Positions 2,919 to 50,538 of a stretch of 64,000 bases of DNA are shown one piece after another. The stretch is from the NCBI GenBank assembly GCA_903900335.1, contig CAIUMP010000001.1, forward strand, positions 1 through 64,000, given 5' to 3'. Position 1 is the stretch's first letter. Each line of letters opens with the position of its first letter. A program made the position numbers and the translations under genes. Source of the DNA: an uncultured Ignavibacteriota bacterium. GTDB lineage: Bacteria > Bacteroidota > Ignavibacteria > Palsa-1295. The notes below the pieces were generated by a model that was given only the letters and a program-made list of their open reading frames with translations, ran no database searches and was not told where the DNA came from.

Positions 2919-4234
2919 TGCAAATACCATACTTATCATCGGTTTTTCTTCTGCTTGGGATGCTTTCGTCAGGCTGTGAATCTCCGAATACACATTTACC
3001 AGTTATCTTGAATCCCAAGGATACCCTGAGAGCCGATAGCATGCGGGTTCGATGGGCAACTCAAATACCCTTCAATCCAAGCGAATTCACCGAGTCACGA
3101 CTAAGGCCAGCAATTATTGATGATTCGCTAATCATATTCGGTTTTTCCGAAGGTTTCGTGTGTCTGAATATGAATACCGGTGCGATCAAGTGGCAGACAC
3201 AAATTGGACTAACACTCGGGCAGAGGATTAGTGTATGGGCCGCACTTGACATGATCATCGAAAATGGAAGAATCTACACGTTAGCGTCGAACGATGCGGT
3301 TCGTGGTTCAAAGGCCTCGGCAGTTTGCCTATCTGTTACGGACGGACATCTGAATTGGAGGCATGACATTGCACCTGAAGAGTCCTTCGCGTGGCAATTT
3401 AGTAAGTATTCCTCTTCTCCTGATGCAATTTATTACTCGACACAATCGAGCCACGTTGTTGCTCTGTCTAAATCGGATGGTTCGGTCTTATGGGATTCAC
3501 CGAATGGGGCGTACAAACCGTTGAACTTTCAGATCTATCAAGGAGAACCCACCTATAAGAACGGCATACTCTATGTTTGCTCATCATTCAATACCCCCGA
3601 TGGCTTCCACAACGATGGTGGGGTTGTTGCCCTCGATGCAAAGACAGGGAATGTACTTTGGAAGAAGATGTTCCCCCATGCCGATTCCTCCTCAGGATAT
3701 TACAATCCTGCTCTATTGAATGAGAATCTTATCCACGCTCCTCCGCTGCCTACGCAGGATGGATTGATTCTTACAGCGGGCTTCTGCATCACACTAATGG
3801 ACGATACCGGACGCTTCGTTTGGATGAAGGCTCCTAACATTAATGGAAATCTCTCGATCTACGATTGGCAGCCATTCCTCCAAAATGGGAAACTGTATGG
3901 ATATAATAACGGCAATGGAAATTATTTTACATTTTGCATGGATCCTCACACTGGCTCTATGAGTTGGATACAGATCGCTTTGAGCCCTCCTGACGGTGCC
4001 ACCGAAATCTTCAATTCACCTGGAATTGATTCAATTTCGACATATATAATCAGCGACGCTTTCCAGATTTTTGGCCAAAGCCTTGCGGACGGTCATCGTG
4101 ATTTGTTTGTTGATCCTCGATATTATAGCAAGGGTGATTATGTTCCAGGTGGCGAGATTCTCGTGCGCGGTAACCGATTGTACTATCAGACAAGAGATAC
4201 GCAGGATTACATCATATGCTTGGAGCGTCCCTGA
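2918..4234 (+). CDS. PQQ-like beta-propeller lipoprotein
   Basis: 438 residues from a GTG overlapping the lipase stop by one base. A lipoprotein signal ends in the lipobox LSSGC (Cys at about 20), so the protein is predicted to be lipid-anchored in the envelope. The body has repeated blades of the type seen in PQQ-binding-like propellers: VCLNMNTGAIKWQT, VVALSKSDGSVLWD, VVALDAKTGNVLWKK and similar. The fold is that of BamB or PQQ dehydrogenases, but this is not BamB by context; a binding or scaffold role beside the secreted hydrolase is inference. It lies in the same low-GC cassette. Confidence 0.75.
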   Translation: MQIPYLSSVFLLLGMLSSGCESPNTHLPVILNPKDTLRADSMRVRWATQIPFNPSEFTESRLRPAIIDDSLIIFGFSEGFVCLNMNTGAIKWQTQIGLTLGQRISVWAALDMIIENGRIYTLASNDAVRGSKASAVCLSVTDGHLNWRHDIAPEESFAWQFSKYSSSPDAIYYSTQSSHVVALSKSDGSVLWDSPNGAYKPLNFQIYQGEPTYKNGILYVCSSFNTPDGFHNDGGVVALDAKTGNVLWKKMFPHADSSSGYYNPALLNENLIHAPPLPTQDGLILTAGFCITLMDDTGRFVWMKAPNINGNLSIYDWQPFLQNGKLYGYNNGNGNYFTFCMDPHTGSMSWIQIALSPPDGATEIFNSPGIDSISTYIISDAFQIFGQSLADGHRDLFVDPRYYSKGDYVPGGEILVRGNRLYYQTRDTQDYIICLERP

Positions 4235-5137: not shown

Positions 5138-5689
5138 TTACTCCGCCTCTACCTGCGCGTAATCCAATTCGACTGGTGTCTTGCGTCCAAAGATGGACAC
5201 TTCAACCTTCAACTTCTGCTTGTCTTCGTTGACTTCCTTGATCTGTGCGCCAAAACCAGAGAATGGTCCATCAATGACCTTCACAGGCTGTCCGAGGAAG
5301 AAGCGAATTTCTGGCGACTCCATACCACGCTTTTCTTCAACCTTACCGAGGATGCGGCGCATCTCGTCTGGCTGAAGCGCTGCGGGCTGGTTCTTGGTCG
5401 CACCGACGAAGGCGACGACACCGGGCACGGAGAGAATAAGATCGATCAGCTTCTTATCGAGTGCTGCCTCGATCAGGATATAGCCGGGCAAAAAACTCTT
5501 GGTCTTCGTTCGCTTCTTGCCATCGCGAACTTCATACACCTTTTCGTTAGGGATGACCACTTCTGGCACCCGCTCGGAAACTCCGCGGCGCTTGAGCTCA
5601 TCTTCGATGTACGCCTTGACCTTTGCTTCGTGACCGGTGAAAGTCCGAAGGGCGTACCACTTGAGGGAGATTCCTTGAAGTTCGCTCAT
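5138..5689 (-). CDS. nusG: Transcription termination/antitermination factor NusG
   Basis: 183 residues with the NusG two-domain layout. The NGN domain begins [20 protein letters not shown] and includes [10 protein letters not shown] and [10 protein letters not shown]; the KOW domain at the end carries [20 protein letters not shown] and [19 protein letters not shown]. It binds RNA polymerase and links it to Rho or the ribosome. The start overlaps the secE stop (ATGA), the usual secE-nusG pair. Unusually, rplK does not follow: rplK-rplA lie at 49.4 kb on the other strand. Confidence 0.97.
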
Positions 5690-33949: not shown

Positions 33950-36900
33950 TTACGCTGCCACACGCTCCCGACGCATCACGCGATCCGCAGATGGAGCTTC
34001 TTCGGCGCCCATCCAGCCACCGGTGTCGGTGTTGGTTTTGAACTCTTCCTTCGGCGATACGATGAGATCGCGGAATTTCGGAAGGCCCGTACCGGCCGGG
34101 ATAAGGTGACCGACGATAACATTCTCCTTGAGTCCGAGCAGGGTATCGACCTTCGCCTGGATTGCGGCGTCGGTGAGCACCTTTGTCGTCTCCTGGAAGG
34201 ATGCGGCGGAGATGAAGCTCTCTGTGGTAAGAGCAGCCTGTGTGATGCCGAGCAGCACGGGTTCGCCATGTACTGGCTCTGCCGGACGTGCCTCGGGCAC
34301 GATCTTCTCCTTCTTCTTGAGATCGGTGACGACCTCCTTGAATCGCTTCTTGTCGAACATCTGAGCGACCTTGAACTTCGAATCACCACGCTTGGTGATG
34401 AAGACCGAGTTCATCAGCATCTCATTCTCGGTCGCGACCTTCGCCTTATCGACCTCATCATTGACGAGCAACAGCGAATCGCCGCTGGCTGTGATGCGGA
34501 CCTTGCCCAACATCTGGCGCACGATGACTTCGATATGCTTATCGGAGATCTTCACACCCTGCATGCGATAGACTTCCTGAATCTCATTCACAAGGTACTG
34601 CTGCACTTCTGCAACGCCCTTGATCGCGAGAATATCATGTGGGTCGATCGCACCATCGGACAGACGCTCTCCCGAACGGACGGTGTCGCCTTCCTGGACA
34701 AGAATGTGCTTACCGAATGGAATCGTGTACTCGCGGCGGTCGGTCGCATCGTGCGATGTGACGACGACGACGCGTGAACCACGACGCGGCTTCTCGAAGT
34801 GAACCGCTCCGTCGATCTCGGAGACCGTCGCGGGATCGCTTGGCGAACGCGCCTCGAAGAGCTCCGTAACGCGCGGAAGACCTCCCGTGATGTCACGCTG
34901 CTTGCCGGACTCACGTGCGATCTTCACGAGCACCGTTGCAGCCTCGATGTCCTGATGATTCTGGACCTGGAGAATGGCGTTGCTCGGGATAATGTAGTTA
35001 ATGATAACATGACCATCCGAGGCAACGATGTCGATCGTCGGCGACTTTGTGCGATCGCGTGAGTCGATCGTACGGATCTGGAGATTACCCGTAAGTTCGT
35101 CGGCCTCTTCGCGGAACGTGATGTTCTCGATGAAGTCCTTGAAGCGGATCGCGCCAGCATGTTCCGAAATAATGACCGCATTGTACGGATCCCACTCATA
35201 GAGCATCTCGCCCTTGACGACCACCTTGCCATCTGTGACGAGGATACGCGAGCCATACGGCACATCGAACTTACCGACAACGCGGTTATCTTCGTCGAGC
35301 ACGTTCACGACACCGGAGCGGCTCATGACGATATGCTCGCCTTCCGGATTGATGACGACCTTCATGCCTTCGTATTGCACGGTGCCATCGAACTTCGACG
35401 TGACCTGCGACTGCGATGCGATGAGCGATGCGGCACCACCCGTGTGGAATGTACGAAGCGTAAGCTGCGTACCGGGCTCGCCGATGGACTGTGCCGCGAT
35501 GATACCCACAGCCTCTCCCATTTCGACGATCTTGTGCGTCGTGAGGTTGCGACCGTAGCACTGCGCGCACACACCGCGGCGGGCTTCGCATGTAAGCACC
35601 GAGCGGATGAGCACGGTCTCGATGGAGGTCGAAGCGATCTTCGCAGCGACGATCTCGTCGATCATGCCGCCAGCCTCAACGAGCACCTCGCCGTTGAGTG
35701 GATCGGTGACGACATCGAGCGTAACACGACCGAGGATACGCTCGGAGAGCGGTTCCTTTACGTCTTCGCCTTCCTTCAATGCGCTGACCGGAATACCACG
35801 GATCGTACCGCAGTCGAAGCCGGAGATGATAGCATCCTGCGCGGCGTCGATGAGGCGGCGCGTGAGGTAACCGGCGTCCGCTGTTTTGAGAGCCGTATCG
35901 GCAAGGCCCTTACGAGCGCCGTGCGTCGAGATGAAGTACTCGAGGATCGAAAGACCCTCGTGGAAGTTCGAGATGATCGGGTTTTCGATAAGCTCGCCCG
36001 TCTGTCCTGACAAGGACTTCTGCGGCTTGGCCATAAGACCGCGCATACCGGCAAGCTGACGAACCTGTTCTTTCGATCCACGAGCGCCGGAATCGACCAT
36101 CATGTAGAGTGGATTGAATCCATCGCGGTCGTGCTGCAACGCGTCGAAGAGCTTGTCCGCAGTGCGGTTTGTCGCACGCGTCCAGATGTCGATGACCTTG
36201 TTGTAGCGTTCGCCAGAGGTCATGAAGCCGTTGAGGTACTTGTCCTGAACGTCATCAACCTGCTTCTGCGCTTTCGCGATGATCTCGTCCTTCTCCTTCG
36301 GCACGATGATGTCCGAGAGAGCTACGGAGAGTCCGCCCTTCGTTGCAAATCCGAATCCGAGATCCTTGAGCTTATCAAGGAAGATAACGGTCTTGAGCGT
36401 ACCGACCGAGCGGAACGTGGTCGCGATGATCTGACGCAGACGCTTCTTTGTGAGAAGCTCATTCAGATAACCGAGTTCTTCTGGCACGATTGCATTAAAG
36501 ATCGCGCGACCCGTCGTGGTCTCGATCATCTTGCCCTTGACGCGGACGTGAATCTTCGCGTGAAGATCGAGGCGACCGAGATTGTAGGCGATGACAGCTT
36601 CCTTCGAGTCCGAGAAGCGCATACCTTCGCCGAGCGCACCCACGCGGTGTTTCGTGAGATAGTACGCTCCAAGAACCATGTCCTGCGACGGAACGGCGAT
36701 CGGCTCACCATTCTGCGGGGAGATGATGTTGTGCGAAGAGAGCATGAGGATCGCACACTCGAGCTGTGCTTCGTAGCTCAGCGGCACGTGAACGGCCATC
36801 TGATCGCCGTCAAAGTCAGCGTTAAAGGCGGTACAGACGAGCGGATGAAGCTGCAACGCGCGTCCTTCGACAAGGCGTGGCTGGAACGCCTGAATGCCGA

Positions 36901-38230
36901 GTCTGTGCAGAGTGGGAGCGCGGTTGAGCATGATCGGATGCCCATCGATGATGGACTCCAAAATATCCCACACTTCGGTTGTCTTCTTTTCAACGACCTT
37001 CTTCGCACTCTTTACCGTCTTCGTAATTCCGCGCTCGATGAGCTTGCGGATGATGAACGGCTTGAAGAGTTCGACAGCCATCTCCTTCGGAAGTCCGCAC
37101 TCGTGTAGCTTGAGTTCTGGTCCGACGACGATAACCGAACGACCGGAATAATCAACGCGCTTACCCAGCAAGTTCTGGCGGAAGCGGCCCTGCTTACCCT
37201 TGAGGGTATCAGAGAGTGACTTGAGCGCGCGGCTTGTGTCCGAACGTACAGCAGAAACACGGCGCGAGTTATCGAGCAGCGAATCCACGGCCTCTTGCAA
37301 CATGCGCTTCTCATTACGCAAAATAACCTCTGGCGCCTTGATGTCCATCAGGCGCTTCAAGCGGTTGTTGCGGATGATAACGCGGCGATAGAGATCGTTG
37401 AGATCGGATGTGGCGAAGCGACCGCCTTCAAGCGGCACAAGCGGACGAAGCTCTGGCGGAATAACTGGAATGACATTCATGACCATCCACCACGGACGGT
37501 TCTCCGGCTTGTTCTCGTCTTCACGGAATGCCTCGATGGTGCGGAGACGCTTCAGCGCGTCCTGACGCTTCAACTGCGAAGTCTCTTCACGCGCTGCACG
37601 GCGAAGATCGAGCGATAAAGCTTCGATGTCCGTGCGTTTCAGAAGCTCCTTGATAGCCTCACCGCCGATGAGGGCAATGAACTTGTTCGGGTCTTCGTCG
37701 GACATCTCGGTGTTGCCCGGAGGAAGCGAATCGAGCACCTTGAAGTACTCTTCTTCCGTCAACAAATGCTTGATCGGAAGCCCTGTGCCGCCAGCGTTGA
37801 CGACGACATACGACTCATAATAGACGATCTTTTCGAGATCCTTCGTCGGCATTCCGAGCAAGTGACCGATCTTATTCGGCAGCGAACGGAAATACCAAAT
37901 ATGCACGACAGGCACGGCGAGCATGATGTGTCCAAAACGCTCGCGGCGCACGGACTTCGTTGTTACCTCGACGCCGCAGCGGTCGCAGATAATGCCTTTG
38001 TAACGGATGCGCTTGTACTTTCCGCAATAGCATTCCCAATCGCGCGTTGGTCCGAAGATCTTCTCGCAAAAGAGTCCGTCTTTTTCCGGGCGATACGACC
38101 GGTAGTTGATCGTCTCGGGCTTCGTCACTTCGCCATGGCTACGGTTGAGCATCGAGTCCGGAGACGAGAGGCCCACCGAGATGGAGGCGAAATTACGAAG
38201 CGGTACTTCCTGGGGCAGCATGTAAGCCAT
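33950..38230 (-). CDS. rpoC: DNA-directed RNA polymerase subunit beta'
   Basis: 1426 residues, full length for Bacteroidota-type beta'. The N-terminal zinc site is [20 protein letters not shown], the catalytic loop is [12 protein letters not shown], and the second zinc site is [15 protein letters not shown]. The bridge-helix region near [20 protein letters not shown] is intact, and the trigger-loop region is present. It catalyses RNA synthesis with RpoB. ATG 38230 (MAYMLPQ) is used; ATG 38221 is possible. Separation from rpoB by 163 bp with three hairpins is unusual. Confidence 0.98.
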
Positions 38231-38276
38231 ATGGTATTCTCTTAGTCTAACCTATTTCAAAATCTTTTTCTTCAAG

Positions 38277-38373
38277 TCCCTCTCCCAGCGGGAGAGGGAT
38301 TTAGGGAGAGGCAGTCCGCTTAAAGAACTGCCTCATCCCCCCTGCCCCCCTTCTCCCGTTGGGAGAAGGGGGG
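38277..38373. repeat. Three-hairpin element between rpoB and rpoC
   Basis: Three inverted repeats in a row: tccctctccc/gggagaggga (38277-38299), gaggcagt/actgcctc (38308-38334) and ccccccttctccc/gggagaagggggg (38345-38373). The first and third share the CTCTCCC/GGGAGAG theme of dispersed intergenic repeats found in many environmental genomes. There is no T-run, so rpoC transcription can continue. Confidence 0.85.
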
Positions 38374-38393
38374 TGAGAGAGGATTACACCCTT

Positions 38394-41300
38394 TTAGTCG
38401 ATGCGCACTTCCAGCGCCAATCCCTGCAACTCGCGAACGAGTACGCTGAAGGATTCCGGCACGCTTGGCTCAGGCATGTTCTCGCCCTTGACGATCGCTT
38501 CATAGACCTTCGAGCGGCCTGGAACGTCATCGGACTTCACCGTGAGAATCTCCTGGAGAGCGTGCGCCGCGCCGTATGCTTCGAGCGCCCACACTTCCAT
38601 TTCACCGAAGCGCTGTCCGCCGAACTGTGCCTTACCACCAAGCGGCTGCTGCGTGATGAGGGAGTACGGTCCGATCGAACGGGCGTGGATCTTATCATCA
38701 ACAAGATGCGACAGCTTCATCATATAGATGATACCGACCGTCACCTTTTGATCGAACTTCTCGCCAGAGCGGCCATCGTAAAGTGGCGTACGCGCTTCGG
38801 TGTCGAGTCCGGCCTCTGCGAGATAGCCCTTCACGTCGTTCCAATGTGCGCCATCGAAGATCGGTGTCTCGAAGCGGACGCCAAGCTGGCGACCAGCGAA
38901 TCCGAGAGCAGTCTCATAAAGCTGCCCGATATTCATACGGCTTGGCACGCCGAGCGGGTTAAGCACGATGTCCACAGGAGTTCCGTCTGCGAGGAACGGC
39001 ATGTCCTGAATAGGTACGATCTTGGCGACGACACCCTTGTTACCGTGGCGTCCGGCCATCTTATCACCGACGGAAAGCTTGCGCTTCTTCGCAACATAAA
39101 CCTTCGCCATCTGCATGATACCGGGCTGGAGATCATCTCCCAAACCGATCTTCGAACGCTCGCGACGAACGTCCGCATCAATGTCTTCACGCTTGATCCA
39201 GTATCCTTCGTAGATCTTCCGGATCTGGTTCATCTTGCGGCGATCCTCTACCCAATCGTTACCGATAGAGAGATGATCGAGTTCATCCAGGCGCGAGTTG
39301 AAAGTGTCGGCCTTGAACGTGACGCCGGAGCGGATGACCGCGCCGCCATCAAGATCACGAACACCAACAGATGCTTCGCCATCGAGAACCTTCAGCAGCT
39401 TCTCTGCGAGCTTGCGATTCGTGTCGTCAAGCTGCTCCTTGTAATGCTTGTCGATGAGATCGATACGGCGCTTCTCCTCGCGCTTTTCTTCGCCTTCCTT
39501 CTTGAGGCCCTTGCGGGAAAAGAGTTTGGTATCGACAACGACGCCCTTGATTCCAGGAGGTGCCTTCATCGAAGCATCCTTCACGTCGCCGGCCTTGTCG
39601 CCGAAGATGGCGCGGAGGAGCTTCTCTTCCGGCGTCGGGTCGGTCTCGCCCTTCGGCGTGATCTTACCGATAAGGATGTCGCCTTCTTTAACTTCAGCAC
39701 CGGTACGAATGACACCGGTGTCGTCCAAATCCTTCGTCGCCTCTTCCGAGACGTTCGGAATTTCACGAGTGAGCTCTTCCTCGCCGCGCTTGGTGTCGCG
39801 GACGTGAAGCTCGAACTCCTCGATATGGATCGAGGTGTAAATATCTTCGGAGACTACGCGCTCGGAGATGACGATAGCATCTTCGAAGTTGTAACCTCTC
39901 CATGGCATGAACGCCACGAGCACGTTACGACCAAGCGCGAGTTCGCCATCTTCCGTCGATGACGAATCAGCGAGAACATCACCCTTCTTCACACGCTGTC
40001 CCTGCTTAACGATCGGGCGCTGTGTGATGGATGTGTCCTGGTTCGTACGGAAGAACTTGATGAGCTCGTATTCCTTGCGGCGGCGGTCATCAAAGCTCGC
40101 GAGGATCTCATCGCGTGAACCCTCATCATCATAGACCATGACGATACGGCGTCCGTCAACGAAATCGACAACACCATCGCGCTCGGCGAGGATGAGTGTG
40201 CGGCTGTCGCGTGCGATCTTACCTTCAAAGCCTGTACCGACGAAAGGCGCTTCCGGACGGAGAAGTGGCACCGCCTGGCGTTGCATGTTCGATCCCATGA
40301 GTGCGCGGTTGGCGTCATCATGCTCAAGGAATGGAACGAGCGCAGCGGCGGCAGAGACGATCTGCGACGGCGCGACATCCATATACTGCACGACATCCGG
40401 CGCGATCACGATAAAGTCACCATACTGGCGCGCGCTGATGCGGTCGCCCACGAAGTGGCCCTTCTCGTCAAGCTCCTGATTGGCCTGCGCGATGATCTTG
40501 TCTTCTTCATCATCGGCAGAGAGATACGTGATCTCGCTGGAGACCTTGCCGTTCTTCACGATGCGATATGGCGTCTCGACAAAGCCGAACTCGTTGATAC
40601 GAGCATAGACGGCAAGTGACGAGATAAGACCGATGTTCGGGCCTTCCGGCGTTTCGATCGGGCAGAGGCGACCGTAGTGCGTGTAGTGAACGTCGCGGAC
40701 TTCGAAGCCAGCGCGTTCGCGGGTAAGACCACCAGGTCCGAGGGCCGACATACGACGCTTGTGCGTCATCTCGGCAAGCGGATTGGTCTGATCCATGAAC
40801 TGCGAAAGCTGGTTCGTACCGAAGAAGGTATTGATAACGCTCGTGACGGTACGCGCATTGACGAGATCGGCCGGGCCGACCTTCTCATCATGGATCGACA
40901 TGCGCTCGCGAATGGTGCGAGCCATACGCGCCAAGCCAATATTGAACTGCTGTGCAAGCTGCTCGCCAACCGTGCGAACGCGGCGATTACCCAAGTGATC
41001 GATGTCATCGACTGCGGCCTTACCAAGCTGCAAGCGGATGATATACTTGAGGATCTCTACAATGTCTTCCTTTGTCAGCGTGGTGATCTCGTTCGGGATA
41101 CCACCTTCGTCGTTGTGCAGCTTCTGATTCAAACGGATACGACCGACCAGGCCAAGATCGTAGCGCTTCTGATTAAAGAAGAGCTTTTCGAGCAAGCCGC
41201 GCGCGGCTTCCATATCCGGCGCTTCGGAGGAGCGCATGACGCGATAGATCGCCTCGAATGCGTCGTCGGTGGAGCGCGACGGATCCTTTGCAATCGTGTT

Positions 41301-42227
41301 CAGGACAACACGGCCACCCGTGTTCTCCAGATCCATGAACTTGAGCTTCTTGATACCGGCACCCTTGAGGCGTTCGATATGCTCTTCGAGGAACGTCGAA
41401 TCCTTCGAAAGGAAGATCTCACCCGTGTTCATGTCGATGACGTCCGCAGCGACGAGCTTGCCAACCTGCGCGGCGAGATCGCCGGTCTTCACATCCATAT
41501 CGGTGATGAGACCGAACAACTGGAGAATGTCCTCGTCGCTCGAATATCCGAGCGCGCGAAGGAGCATCGTCACCGGGAATTTCTTCTTGCGGTCGATGTA
41601 GGCCCAAAGGACGTTATTGATGTCCGTTGTGAACTCCACCCAGCTTCCACGGAATGGAATGACGCGACCGGAATAGATGGTCGTGCCGTTCGGATGAAGG
41701 CTCTCGGCGAAGAAGACGCCTGGGCTTCTGTGCAACTGCGAAACGACAACGCGCTCAGCACCATTGATGATGAACGTACCACGCTCGGTCATCTGGGGCA
41801 AGTTGCCCAAGAACACTTCCTGCTCGACGGTCTCGACGAAATCCTCGGAACCCTCTTCCTGATTCTTCGAGGCCAAACGCAGACGCGCCTTGAGCGGCAC
41901 GCTGTACGTAAGCCCGCGCTCCTGACACTCCTGCACGCTGTAACGCGGCTTTTCGAGACGATAATCGAGATACTCGAGAATGAATGTCTCGCGGGAATCG
42001 ACGATGGGGAAATTAAGCTGGAACACGGATTCCAGTCCCATCACGGCGCGGTCTGCCAGCGGGATGCCCTCTTGCAGGAATTCGTAGAAGCTCTTGAGCT
42101 GCACGTCGAGAAGATCGGGCAGTTCGTAGTCGCGAGGAATTTTCGAGAACGAGATACGGCCATTGTCCACTACGTGGGCGCCGTTGAGCAGGTTCGTTCC
42201 GTTGGATGTCTTGGTTGCTTTCGCCAT
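38394..42227 (-). CDS. rpoB: DNA-directed RNA polymerase subunit beta
   Basis: 1277 residues. The rifampicin-region pattern [27 protein letters not shown] is present with [16 protein letters not shown] following; the catalytic region [17 protein letters not shown] and the C-terminal [21 protein letters not shown] are intact. The rifampicin cluster reads SQFMDQTN, the sensitive-type sequence. Usually rplJL precedes it; here a 578-bp gap and a divergent lipoprotein gene do. Confidence 0.98.
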
Positions 42228-47664: not shown

Positions 47665-47713
47665 GGTCGCCAATCTTCCGGTCCTGCTTAGGGCATGGAA
47701 TTGCGAAGCTCAT

Positions 47714-47802
47714 AGGTCGGGCATCCTTGCCCGATACCCCCTTCCCAACGTCGTCTCATCAACCGGAGGTGCCAGGCAGGGATGCCCGACCTACGCGAGA
47801 AC
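47714..47802. repeat. Second REP family: gggcat hairpin pair
   Basis: gtaggtcgggcatccttgcccga at one end and ggcagggatgcccgacctac at the other are inverted copies separated by about 45 bases. A single related unit (gtcgggcagggatgcccgg) lies at 48967-48983. These frame the palindromes around the RAYT gene. Confidence 0.7.
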
Positions 47803-47917
47803 GTGAACTGTGATAGGTGGGATGGGTGGGATTTATGGGGAGAGGAACAGGTCGCCCCGATTGGGGTGAGGGACGATGTTTTTTAATATTTCCGTGTAGC
47901 ATCGGAAATTGTTATTT

Positions 47918-48097
47918 TGTGTAGCGCCGGACCTTCAGGTCCGGTAAAGCGCGGTAGAGACTTCGCCGGAGCTAAAGCTCCGGCGGTACACGAATGAACC
48001 GGCTTGTGTAGCACCGGAGCTTTAGCTCCGGTGTAGTTGTATATTGAGCACAGTTGTTTATTGAACTTTCACCGGAGCTAAAGCTCCGGTGCTACAC
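47918..48097. repeat. Upstream REP array: two inverted palindrome pairs
   Basis: Four hairpins in forward-reverse order: 47927-47944 (ccggacc stem, forward), 47965-47984 (reverse), 48013-48032 (forward) and 48071-48090 (reverse). Forward units are preceded by gtgtag and have a TTTA or TTCA loop; reverse units are followed by ggtacac or gctacac and have a TAAA loop. The first carries paired changes on both stem arms (GACC/GGTC), which keep the hairpin. Confidence 0.93.
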
Positions 48098-48113
48098 AAT
48101 TCGTCCACTTGTT

Positions 48114-48773
48114 ATGAAAATCATTCATGGCGACACGGAGCTTCGACGTCGTCATCTTCCGCATCTCGAACGCCGTGGCGCCGAGTATTTTGTTACCTGG
48201 AGATTATATGGTACGATTCCTGAGGAAGTGTTGGAATCGATGCGACTAAAGGCCCAATCATTGGAGGCGCGGGCGCAAAGCGCGACGCAACCGCCCGACG
48301 AACAAGAGCGAGCAGCCAGAGAACGGAAACGCCTATTCGCTCTTCTCGACCACTATCTCGACAGCGCCAGTACGGGCAACGATTGGCTCAAAAATCCAGA
48401 TTGCCTGGAGACGGTCAAGCAAACGATCCTCGATCAATCTGACCGCGCATCGATTGACTGCTTTACGATCATGCCGAATCATGTTCATCTCTTGTTCCTT
48501 CCGATTCCTCCCGATACCCTTCGCAGTGTGATGAAGCGCATAAAGCAGATTACCGCGTATCACTGTTTGCTTCTTACGAACACTACCCCGCCGTTTTGGG
48601 AAGAGGAAAATTACGATCACATCCCACGCGAAGGTGAACGACCTCGCATCACTTCCTATATTATTCGAAATCCCGTGGTCGCTGGGTTGTGCAACGGATG
48701 GAAAGATTGGTCGGGCACCTACCTCGCGGAGGAATTCGACGGTATTGATGAGCGCGGTTTTTTGATGGGGTGA
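48114..48773 (+). CDS. REP-associated tyrosine transposase (RAYT, Y1_Tnp family)
   Basis: 219 residues from ATG 48114 (MKIIHGDTELRRR). Signature motifs of Y1/HUH enzymes are MPNHVHLLF at 121-129 (His123 and His125, HUH) and the helix SYIIRNPVVAGL at 181-192 with Tyr182 as likely nucleophile; FWEEENYDHIPRE precedes it as in RAYTs. It nicks and joins single-stranded palindromic ends. Unlike IS200 genes it is a single domesticated-type gene with REP palindromes on both sides. Both key motifs look intact, so it may be active. Confidence 0.9.
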   Translation: MKIIHGDTELRRRHLPHLERRGAEYFVTWRLYGTIPEEVLESMRLKAQSLEARAQSATQPPDEQERAARERKRLFALLDHYLDSASTGNDWLKNPDCLETVKQTILDQSDRASIDCFTIMPNHVHLLFLPIPPDTLRSVMKRIKQITAYHCLLLTNTTPPFWEEENYDHIPREGERPRITSYIIRNPVVAGLCNGWKDWSGTYLAEEFDGIDERGFLMG

Positions 48774-48788
48774 TCGGGAACGTTTACT

Positions 48789-48949
48789 GTGTAGTACCGA
48801 ACCTTTAGGTTCGGTGAAGTCCCGGAGAAATTTCGCCGGAGCTGAAGCTCCGACACTACACGGGGTGAAGTTCTAGTGTCTCACCGGAGCTTTAGCTCCG
48901 GTGAGAAGTTGAGGAGGCTTCGCCGGAGCTAAAGCTCCGACGGTACACG
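48789..48949. repeat. Downstream REP array: two inverted palindrome pairs
   Basis: Four hairpins: 48796-48815 (forward, stem accgaacc/ggttcggt), 48835-48854 (reverse, followed by actacac), 48883-48902 (forward) and 48922-48941 (reverse, followed by ggtacac). Forward-reverse spacing is about 19-20 bases. The first keeps pairing with changed bases on both arms relative to the ggagc/gctcc core. Confidence 0.93.
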
Positions 48950-48966
48950 ATTCGTTGAATTGTTTG

Positions 48967-49403
48967 TCGGGCAGGGATGCCCGGTGTACGTTGAGAAAGT
49001 TTTCTCAAAAATATTGGAAAAGCTCTTGACTTCGGGTTTTGGATGTGTTAAGTTACAGGTAATGAGATGGGCACCTTTTCAATTTGGCACACATCCACCG
49101 GGGACCTGGGTTCCCGCATCCGCGGGAATGACAGAATGGAGAGTCTGTTCATTAAATGAACATTCAATTGAGAGAATAGGGGCACCTGTTTTCAATTAGG
49201 GATTGGGATGTGCCTTCGTTGAAGGGATGCTTCGCTCCGCTCAGGATGACGGTATATGGATGGAGCGGTTTTTCTGAACTATTTCTGCCGAAATCCGTTA
49301 CGTTGCGGCAATTTAAATTCGTGGGAGTCCAACCACCCCCTGCCCCCGCCTTGAAAATGCGGGGGTTGGTATGGAAAGACGGACCACTAAACCATATTAC
49401 ATC
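48967..49403. other. Repeat-rich leader of rplK
   Basis: No gene is visible. The stretch holds one gggcat hairpin (48967-48983), a candidate promoter at 49026-49054, one arm of the CATTCCCGC repeat (49111-49133) and a dispersed-repeat fragment (gggatgcttcgctccgctcaggatgac, about 49224-49250). Confidence 0.65.
49026..49054 (+). promoter_or_regulatory. Candidate sigma-70-like promoter upstream of rplK
   Basis: TTGACT (49026-49031), a 17-nt spacer and TAAGTT (49049-49054). The -35 is good, the -10 weak, and it lies 350 bases upstream of the rplK ATG. Its use is unproven. Confidence 0.35.
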
Positions 49404-49829
49404 ATGGCGAAAAAGATAACTGGTTTTATTAAGCTGCAGGTACCTGCAGGCAAGGCTAATCCGGCGCCGCCGATTGGTCCGGCGCTTGGACAGAAGGGCG
49501 TCAATATCATGGAGTTCTGCAAGCAGTTCAACTCGCGGACTCAAAAGGAAGGCGATATGATCATCCCCGTGGTCATTACCGTCTATTCCGACAAGAGCTT
49601 TACCTTCGTTACCAAGACTCCTCCGGCGGCGTCCTTGATCCTCAAGGCAGCTGGTGTGGAGAAGGGTTCAAAGGAGCCGAATCGCTCGAAGGTCGCAAAG
49701 GTCAAGTTGGCGGACATCACTGCCATTGCAAAGCTGAAGATGCCTGATCTTAACGCCGCTTCGCTCGAAGCTGCGATCAGCATGGTATCAGGTACAGCCC
49801 GCTCGATGGGCATAACCGTGGAGGGCTAA
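49404..49829 (+). CDS. rplK: 50S ribosomal protein L11
   Basis: 141 residues from ATG 49404 ([18 protein letters not shown]); the frame opens at 49371, but the extra 11 residues do not match L11. The N-terminal domain has [25 protein letters not shown] and the RNA-binding C-domain has [12 protein letters not shown]-type and KEPNRSKV segments, ending [10 protein letters not shown]. It is the site of thiostrepton and RelA effects on the ribosome. rplA starts 4 bases after its stop. The pair lies on plus, away from nusG and rpoBC. Confidence 0.96.
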
Positions 49830-49833
49830 GATC

Positions 49834-50538
49834 ATGGCAACATACGGCAAACGCTACAACAATCTTGTAAAGAAGCTCGGCGCAGACCGCAAAGCGGTTC
49901 CGATCCCCGAGGCAGTAACGAAGGTCAAAGGCACGGCATCGGCGAAGTTCGATGAGTCCGTTGACATTGCGATCAATCTTGGTGTCGATCCACGTAAAGC
50001 CGATCAGGCTATTCGCGGAACGGTCTCCCTCCCCCACGGAATCGGTAAGACGGTTCGCGTGACGGTCGTGACTCGTAACTCGGAAGCGGCAGCTCTCGCT
50101 GCTGGTGCTGATGAAGCGGGCTTCGAGACGATCCTTGAGAAGATCAAGGGTGGCTGGACGGACACCGATGTTATCATCGCGACTCCTGAAGTTATGGGTG
50201 AGCTTGGTAAGCTCGGTCGTATCCTCGGACCACGTGGCCTCATGCCGAATCCGAAGTCGGGTACGGTTACAACGGACGTTGCAACGGCGGTGAAGGAAGT
50301 CAAGGCCGGTAAGATCGAATTCCGCGTTGACAAGGGTGGGAATATCCACGCTTCTGTCGGCAAGATCTCGTTCGATCAGGCGAAGTTGGTCGATAACGTC
50401 AACATGTTCTTGGCCACGATCATCCGCGCTAAGCCAGCAACGGCGAAGGGTCAGTATGTGAAGTCTGTCGCGCTTAGCTCGACGATGGGACCAAGCGTGA
50501 AGATCGATCCGCAAGAGGCTATTAAGGCTCACGCGTAA
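49834..50538 (+). CDS. rplA: 50S ribosomal protein L1
   Basis: 234 residues. L1 signature VDIAINLGVDPRKADQAIRG and VSLPHGIGKTVRV are near the start, and ILGPRGLMPNPKSGTVT in the middle, with FRVDKGGNIHASVGK near the end. It binds 23S rRNA and in many bacteria represses its own operon. A terminator follows, so rplJ and rplL are not in this unit, which is unusual. Confidence 0.97.
   Translation: MATYGKRYNNLVKKLGADRKAVPIPEAVTKVKGTASAKFDESVDIAINLGVDPRKADQAIRGTVSLPHGIGKTVRVTVVTRNSEAAALAAGADEAGFETILEKIKGGWTDTDVIIATPEVMGELGKLGRILGPRGLMPNPKSGTVTTDVATAVKEVKAGKIEFRVDKGGNIHASVGKISFDQAKLVDNVNMFLATIIRAKPATAKGQYVKSVALSSTMGPSVKIDPQEAIKAHA

Follow-up and report, generated by a model that had tools for sequence, protein, structure and literature searches.

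A RAYT gene framed by ordered pairs of REP hairpins in a Kapaibacterium lineage, with signs of a changed chromosomal position between species

The prevailing view holds that RAYTs derive from transposases but have stopped moving the gene that encodes them. For the RAYTs described in 2010, no change of chromosomal location was reported (PMC2817692), and in 2021 no evidence of tnpAREP mobility was found (PMC8266576). REPINs are inverted REP doublets that are dispersed as units and tied to a single-copy RAYT, with stems that keep their pairing (Bertels and Rainey 2011, PMC3116915), and a crystal structure of E. coli TnpAREP with a bound REP hairpin is available (PDB 4er8). RAYT subclasses with REPs have already been reported from Bacteroidetes (PMC6006769); row 2.7 of the TnpAY1 proteins in that work combines an [ND]HVH motif and a median length of 213 aa with long canonical REPs. 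Our literature search found no paper linking RAYTs with Kapabacteria. An earlier note on the DNA studied here had called such elements less described in their phylum, a remark that is only partly right, given the reports from Bacteroidetes.

We analyzed a 64,000-nt stretch of an uncultured Ignavibacteriota bacterium (the window: GenBank assembly GCA_903900335.1, contig CAIUMP010000001.1, positions 1 to 64,000 of the forward strand). Around a RAYT (TnpAREP-like) gene, P0001 (48114..48773, + strand, 219 aa), it carries eight GTGTA-footed hairpins, which form four pairs in the strict order F-R F-R [RAYT] F-R F-R, two pairs on each side, just as the earlier note described. Upstream of the gene, pair 1 comprises an F hairpin (47919..47944, +; CCGGACC..GGTCCGG) and an R hairpin (47966..47991, -; CCGGAGC..GCTCCGG), while the F (48006..48031, +) and R (48072..48097, -) hairpins of pair 2 form a perfect 30-nt inverted repeat, the latter ending 16 nt 5′ of the RAYT start codon. 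Downstream, pair 3 begins 15 nt 3′ of the RAYT stop with an F hairpin of the compensated variant CCGAACC..GGTTCGG (48789..48814, +), followed by its R partner (48836..48861, -), and pair 4 consists of F (48876..48901, +) and R (48923..48948, -). The F-R units span about 62-92 nt, and their cores are CCGGACC/GGTCCGG, CCGGAGC/GCTCCGG or CCGAACC/GGTTCGG. The matched outer flanks that had been claimed hold in part: the foot GTGTAG stands before the F units of pairs 1-3, the F unit of pair 4 has the degenerate GTGTCT instead, and the R units close with GGTACAC, GCTACAC, ACTACAC and GGTACAC.

For comparison we used 61 relatives, one genome per species, with G000 denoting the window's own genome. The ATG at 48114 as the RAYT start is backed by the homologue at locus L080 of G005, which begins MKIIHGDTELRRR. 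The HUH motif (H123-V124-H125, HVH) and the catalytic tyrosine (Y182) are intact, as previously asserted, and H123, H125, Y182, N186 and P187 are invariant in an alignment of 19 RAYTs of the genus. Residues 182-187 read YIIRNP, which is the Class 2 signature Y---NP and not Y---Q. Pfam Y1_Tnp matched at 24.4 bits, just above its cut-off of 23; the best NCBIfam model, REP_Tyr_transpos, scored 53.4 bits (E 2.4e-14), below a cut-off of 80 that is a curated annotation threshold rather than a defining biological feature.

The AlphaFold2 model (pLDDT 88) has a Y1 transposase fold, and its top PDB match is 4er8 (E 3.4e-7), with IS200/IS605 transposases ranking next; a sequence-profile search returned the same ranking, 4er8 again being first (E 9e-11). 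Two motifs are less typical and, with the low REP_Tyr_transpos score, count against the REPtron reading: WE occupies the position at which typical RAYTs mostly carry WQ, and IPR stands where the relatives have I/V-V-R or IIR. Between the G000 and G005 RAYTs, pN (nonsynonymous) was 0.28 and pS (synonymous) 0.84, and on these rates the protein is under purifying selection. Dating of the divergence from dS was rejected because dS is saturated.

To place the array in its genome, we scanned all 62 contigs (4.0 Mb) for the hairpin pattern with up to 3 mismatches. The scan returned 18 copies, nine forward and nine reverse, all of which (18/18) fall into nine inverted F-R pairs. Four pairs lie at the RAYT and five lie elsewhere, one each on C8, C19 and C38 and two on C42, so that five contigs carry the family when the window's is included. 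This search, proposed in the earlier note, thus confirmed dispersal. Within the same mismatch limit the genome has no hairpin singlets, and the pattern read backwards gave 0 matches. The family therefore consists of inverted doublets dispersed genome-wide, as REPINs do, although 18 hairpins is a low copy number for a REP family and counts against the REPtron reading.

The stems proved as regular as the pairing. Over the 18 genomic copies, the nine-pair stem is 96.3% paired, and changes on both sides of the stem occupy 14 cells, against 5.8 +/- 2.0 in shuffles (0/500 shuffles reach 14), bearing out the earlier statement that pairing persists through changes on both arms. When the partners were slid by 1-3 columns, pairing dropped to 20-40%, and all nine doublets, including the four of the array, form far better ssDNA folds than shuffles do (z = -4.2 to -14). 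Together, the compensation, the collapse on sliding and the folding suggest that it is the hairpin that is conserved and not the exact bases.

Among the relatives, the hairpin family is essentially confined to one genus. Copy numbers there are 18 in the window's own genome, 11 in G002, six in G003, four in G005, two in G001, one in G006 and none in G004, and scanning of the 61 relatives yielded a single match outside the genus, with 3 mismatches. The RAYTs closest to P0001 are 60-65% identical to it. P0001 and the RAYTs of G005 and G002 form one clade (support 98/96), and all three carry the P0001-type hairpin; G004 has neither a RAYT of this clade nor the hairpins. Close RAYTs also appear in public records, namely in the Bacteroidetes MAG Centralia_MAG_339 (60% identity), which matches G005, and in a Candidatus Kapaibacterium MAG (83% identity over the first 35 residues), which matches G002. 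The window's genome has one copy of the P0001 RAYT, and a second RAYT of this clade was found in none of the genomes.

Inverted GT(A/G)G-footed REPs stand on both sides of the RAYT in the window and likewise at L080. Most RAYT loci examined in the genus have a GT(A/G)G- or GTGTA/GTGTG-footed palindrome family of their own on both sides, so the window locus is one of many REPtrons in the lineage. Palindromes follow RAYT relatedness, related RAYTs having related palindromes. Another RAYT of the window's genome (L023 / L149, C53:72266) is bracketed by two F-R pairs of GGGTTAACGGCGTTAACCC-type hairpins, one 5′ and one 3′ of the gene. Further RAYT loci of the genus lie within hairpin arrays at L137 (G004:C5), L144 (G001:C2) and L135 (G004:C17), L144 having five same-orientation hairpins in tandem 3′ of the RAYT.

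A second palindrome family, gggcat, had been described as framing the whole array. Three copies do lie beside it: F (47712..47736, +; GTAGGTCGGGCATCC) and R (47770..47794, -) on the left, and R (48966..48989, -) on the right. The family (GTAGGTCGGGCATCCNTGCCCGAC), however, is separate from this REPtron and belongs with another RAYT clade, so that its palindromes are neighbours of the array and not parts of it. It has 37 copies in the window's genome, mostly single, and few in relatives. Only 4 of 25 tested copies are in pairs; the remaining 21 lack a correctly oriented partner within 120 nt (at least 10 mismatches, as in shuffles). Decay as the cause of this mostly single state was not supported, given a mean pairwise identity of 0.85 versus 0.84 for the paired GTGTA family.

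Hairpins similar to the gggcat family flank a RAYT of a different clade in G005. Of that clade, the window's genome yielded only two 33-residue remnants (L207, C62:94217; L214, C61:116757), truncated REPtron copies in which GTCGAGCGTCCTCGCTCGAC hairpins surround the RAYT tail, which suggests a gene-deleted REPtron derivative. The rightmost gggcat copy adjoins a dispersed repeat some 200 bp long (window ~48993-49195). This repeat contains TTGACTTCGGGTTTTGGATGTGTTA as well as a GGGCACC..TTTTCAA motif in two copies and had no match in Rfam. It recurs on C37, C44, C8, C50, C56 and C45 (L043, L031, L007, L047, L033, L032), mostly adjoining a gggcat palindrome and with 70-88% identity where the match covers most of the repeat; C56 and C45 match in short parts only. 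The usual nusG-rplKAJL-rpoBC cluster is also split in the window (5138-5689, 33950-42227, 49404-50538), with nusG, rpoBC and rplKA lying apart, partly on opposite strands.

Comparison of gene neighborhoods revealed that the RAYT of the P0001 clade sits at a different site in each of the three species that carry it (G000, G005 and G002). Upstream of rplK, it and its array occur in the window's species only; the array is thus not fixed at this locus among the relatives. Gene order varies there, so the comparison gives the absence of RAYT and REPs rather than a clean junction. In G005, LmbE and an APC permease gene enclose a 795-bp F-RAYT-R unit, and these two genes are adjacent without the unit in G000, G001, G002, G004 and G006, the interval in G000 having one unrelated GTAG-footed palindrome instead. 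In G002, F-RAYT-R has ispG on one side and an enoyl-CoA hydratase gene on the other, a site without RAYT in G000, G001, G003, G004 and G005, where the intervening genes vary by species. Two contigs share the G002 RAYT, their join being inferred from conserved gene order, and it matches in two frames, so that it may be broken or misassembled.

At the G005 site, sequence to the left of the RAYT unit (L080 2898-2927) is similar to the APC 3′ end to the right of the unit (3777-3810), a resemblance that duplication of target sequence might have produced (TCTCC..AATAAAAC..GGCCGG.TGAG; score 37, 0/500 shuffles). Gene-less units differ in position as well: the tpiA-gcvH interval contains a REPIN in G002 and none in G001. 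For the C8 REPIN the comparison yielded no empty site, its neighbour gene being without a clear orthologue in other genomes. Two other RAYT clades of the genus hold their locus, L126/L133 and L134/L127 sharing about 88% of the upstream protein-coding flank. The apparently relocated pair is about as diverged (60%) as RAYT pairs at shared loci (62-64%), which fits vertical descent plus relocation, with no sign of an ancient paralogue split.

Collectively, these comparisons suggest that the RAYT, together with its hairpins, changed chromosomal position between species, with the caveat that a similar picture could arise if each species had lost different old paralogues. Movement by its own transposase would be the simplest reading; recombination between dispersed hairpins and transfer between species are other possible routes. 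The system type, a REPtron with REPINs, is already known, and it is the relocation of the RAYT gene that is of interest, since published work offers no evidence that RAYTs are mobile.

The locus is very probably a REPtron, that is, a single-copy Y1/HUH transposase gene with cognate REPs spread as inverted pairs. In such a system, the RAYT would bind one REP hairpin through the GTGTAG foot and the stem when the locus is single-stranded, and would nick beside it by means of Tyr182 and HUH metal catalysis. The cut strand would then pass to another hairpin or target, and the two-hairpin unit of about 62-92 nt would thereby be copied or moved. Four such units have gathered around the gene and five are found elsewhere in the genome, and the F-RAYT-R unit itself would have relocated between species of the genus. 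The RAYT may be active at present, as its purifying selection and the species-level signs of movement hint. A bolder proposal, which we put at slightly below even chances, is that the RAYT of this genus kept IS-like mobility, the REP-RAYT-REP unit transposing with REPs as its ends while also spreading gene-less REPINs.

That the REPtron is instead stationary, with a domesticated RAYT serving the host, hairpins retained because the host uses them, for example in mRNA stability or termination, and positions due to ordinary rearrangement or differential paralogue loss, we consider unlikely. Published RAYTs are housekeeping-like without signs of mobility (PMC2817692, PMC8266576), L126/L133 and L134/L127 stay at one locus across species, and the P0001 protein is under purifying selection. 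Yet the RAYT-free LmbE-APC junction in five congeners demands one insertion in G005 or several independent losses, none of the genomes has two RAYTs of the P0001 clade, and the 60% divergence resembles that of shared-locus pairs, with no deeper paralogue split seen.

An IS200/IS605-type insertion sequence with hairpins as mere ends would be in keeping with the apparent relocation, with the Y1 transposase fold and with the compact 795-bp hairpin-gene-hairpin unit of G005, an account that we nonetheless judge quite improbable. The ends are inverted (F left, R right) with the foot GTGTAG, gene-less pairs outside the RAYT locus outnumber the gene five to one, Y---NP stands against the Y---Q of IS200 (PMC6006769), and the closest structure is TnpAREP. 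Several near-identical full-length RAYT copies per genome, as expected of such elements, were sought and not found. The genome's own IS200-like genes (C24, C26, C44, C54) belong to a different group, those read showing N-Q at the Y motif. Unrelated terminator or attenuator hairpins lying by chance around a transposase fragment have a negligible probability: REPs often sit directly 3′ of stop codons, as at the RAYT and at tpiA of G002, but dispersed copies refute chance, their common sequence at separate loci coming with constant GTGTA feet, strict pairing and compensated stems, and RAYT clade and hairpin family match across species.

Within this one genus, an apparently mobile RAYT clade at otherwise RAYT-free sites coexists with stationary clades, offering a natural comparison for when and how REP transposases become domesticated. 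If the RAYT did keep IS-like mobility, the REP-RAYT-REP unit would occupy an intermediate position between IS200/IS605 elements and domesticated, stationary RAYTs. The hairpins also represent a REP family that is new and specific to the genus, in a Bacteroidota lineage (Kapaibacterium) that is rich in REPtrons and has received little study.

Among described systems, the REPIN/RAYT system (PMC3116915) shares the dispersed inverted doublets, the single-copy RAYT and the pairing-conserving stems. It differs in having hundreds of doublets where we found nine, with no singlets at up to 3 mismatches, and the present one lies in the Kapaibacterium lineage, where the RAYT unit appears to change locus. 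The GTAG head-to-head dimers (PMC3733652), compared by general features, likewise place GTAG outermost on both partners with spacers of tens of bp, but the foot here is GTGTAG and not bare GTAG. Within the TnpAY1 subclasses 2.1-2.8 (PMC6006769), P0001 shows the Class 2 Y---NP signature and comes nearest to 2.7, by motif row only, differing in WE rather than WQ and in YIIRNP. The RAYTs of Nunvar 2010 (PMC2817692) and the E. coli REPtron (4er8; PMC8266576) resemble it in the inverted GT(A/G)G-footed palindromes on both sides, the HUH and Tyr (Y---NP) motifs and the fold. At 219 aa, with its N-terminal half extended, P0001 exceeds them in length, and it bears the motifs NHVH and WE; whereas those RAYTs are without signs of location change (PMC2817692, PMC8266576), the one described here has apparently relocated.
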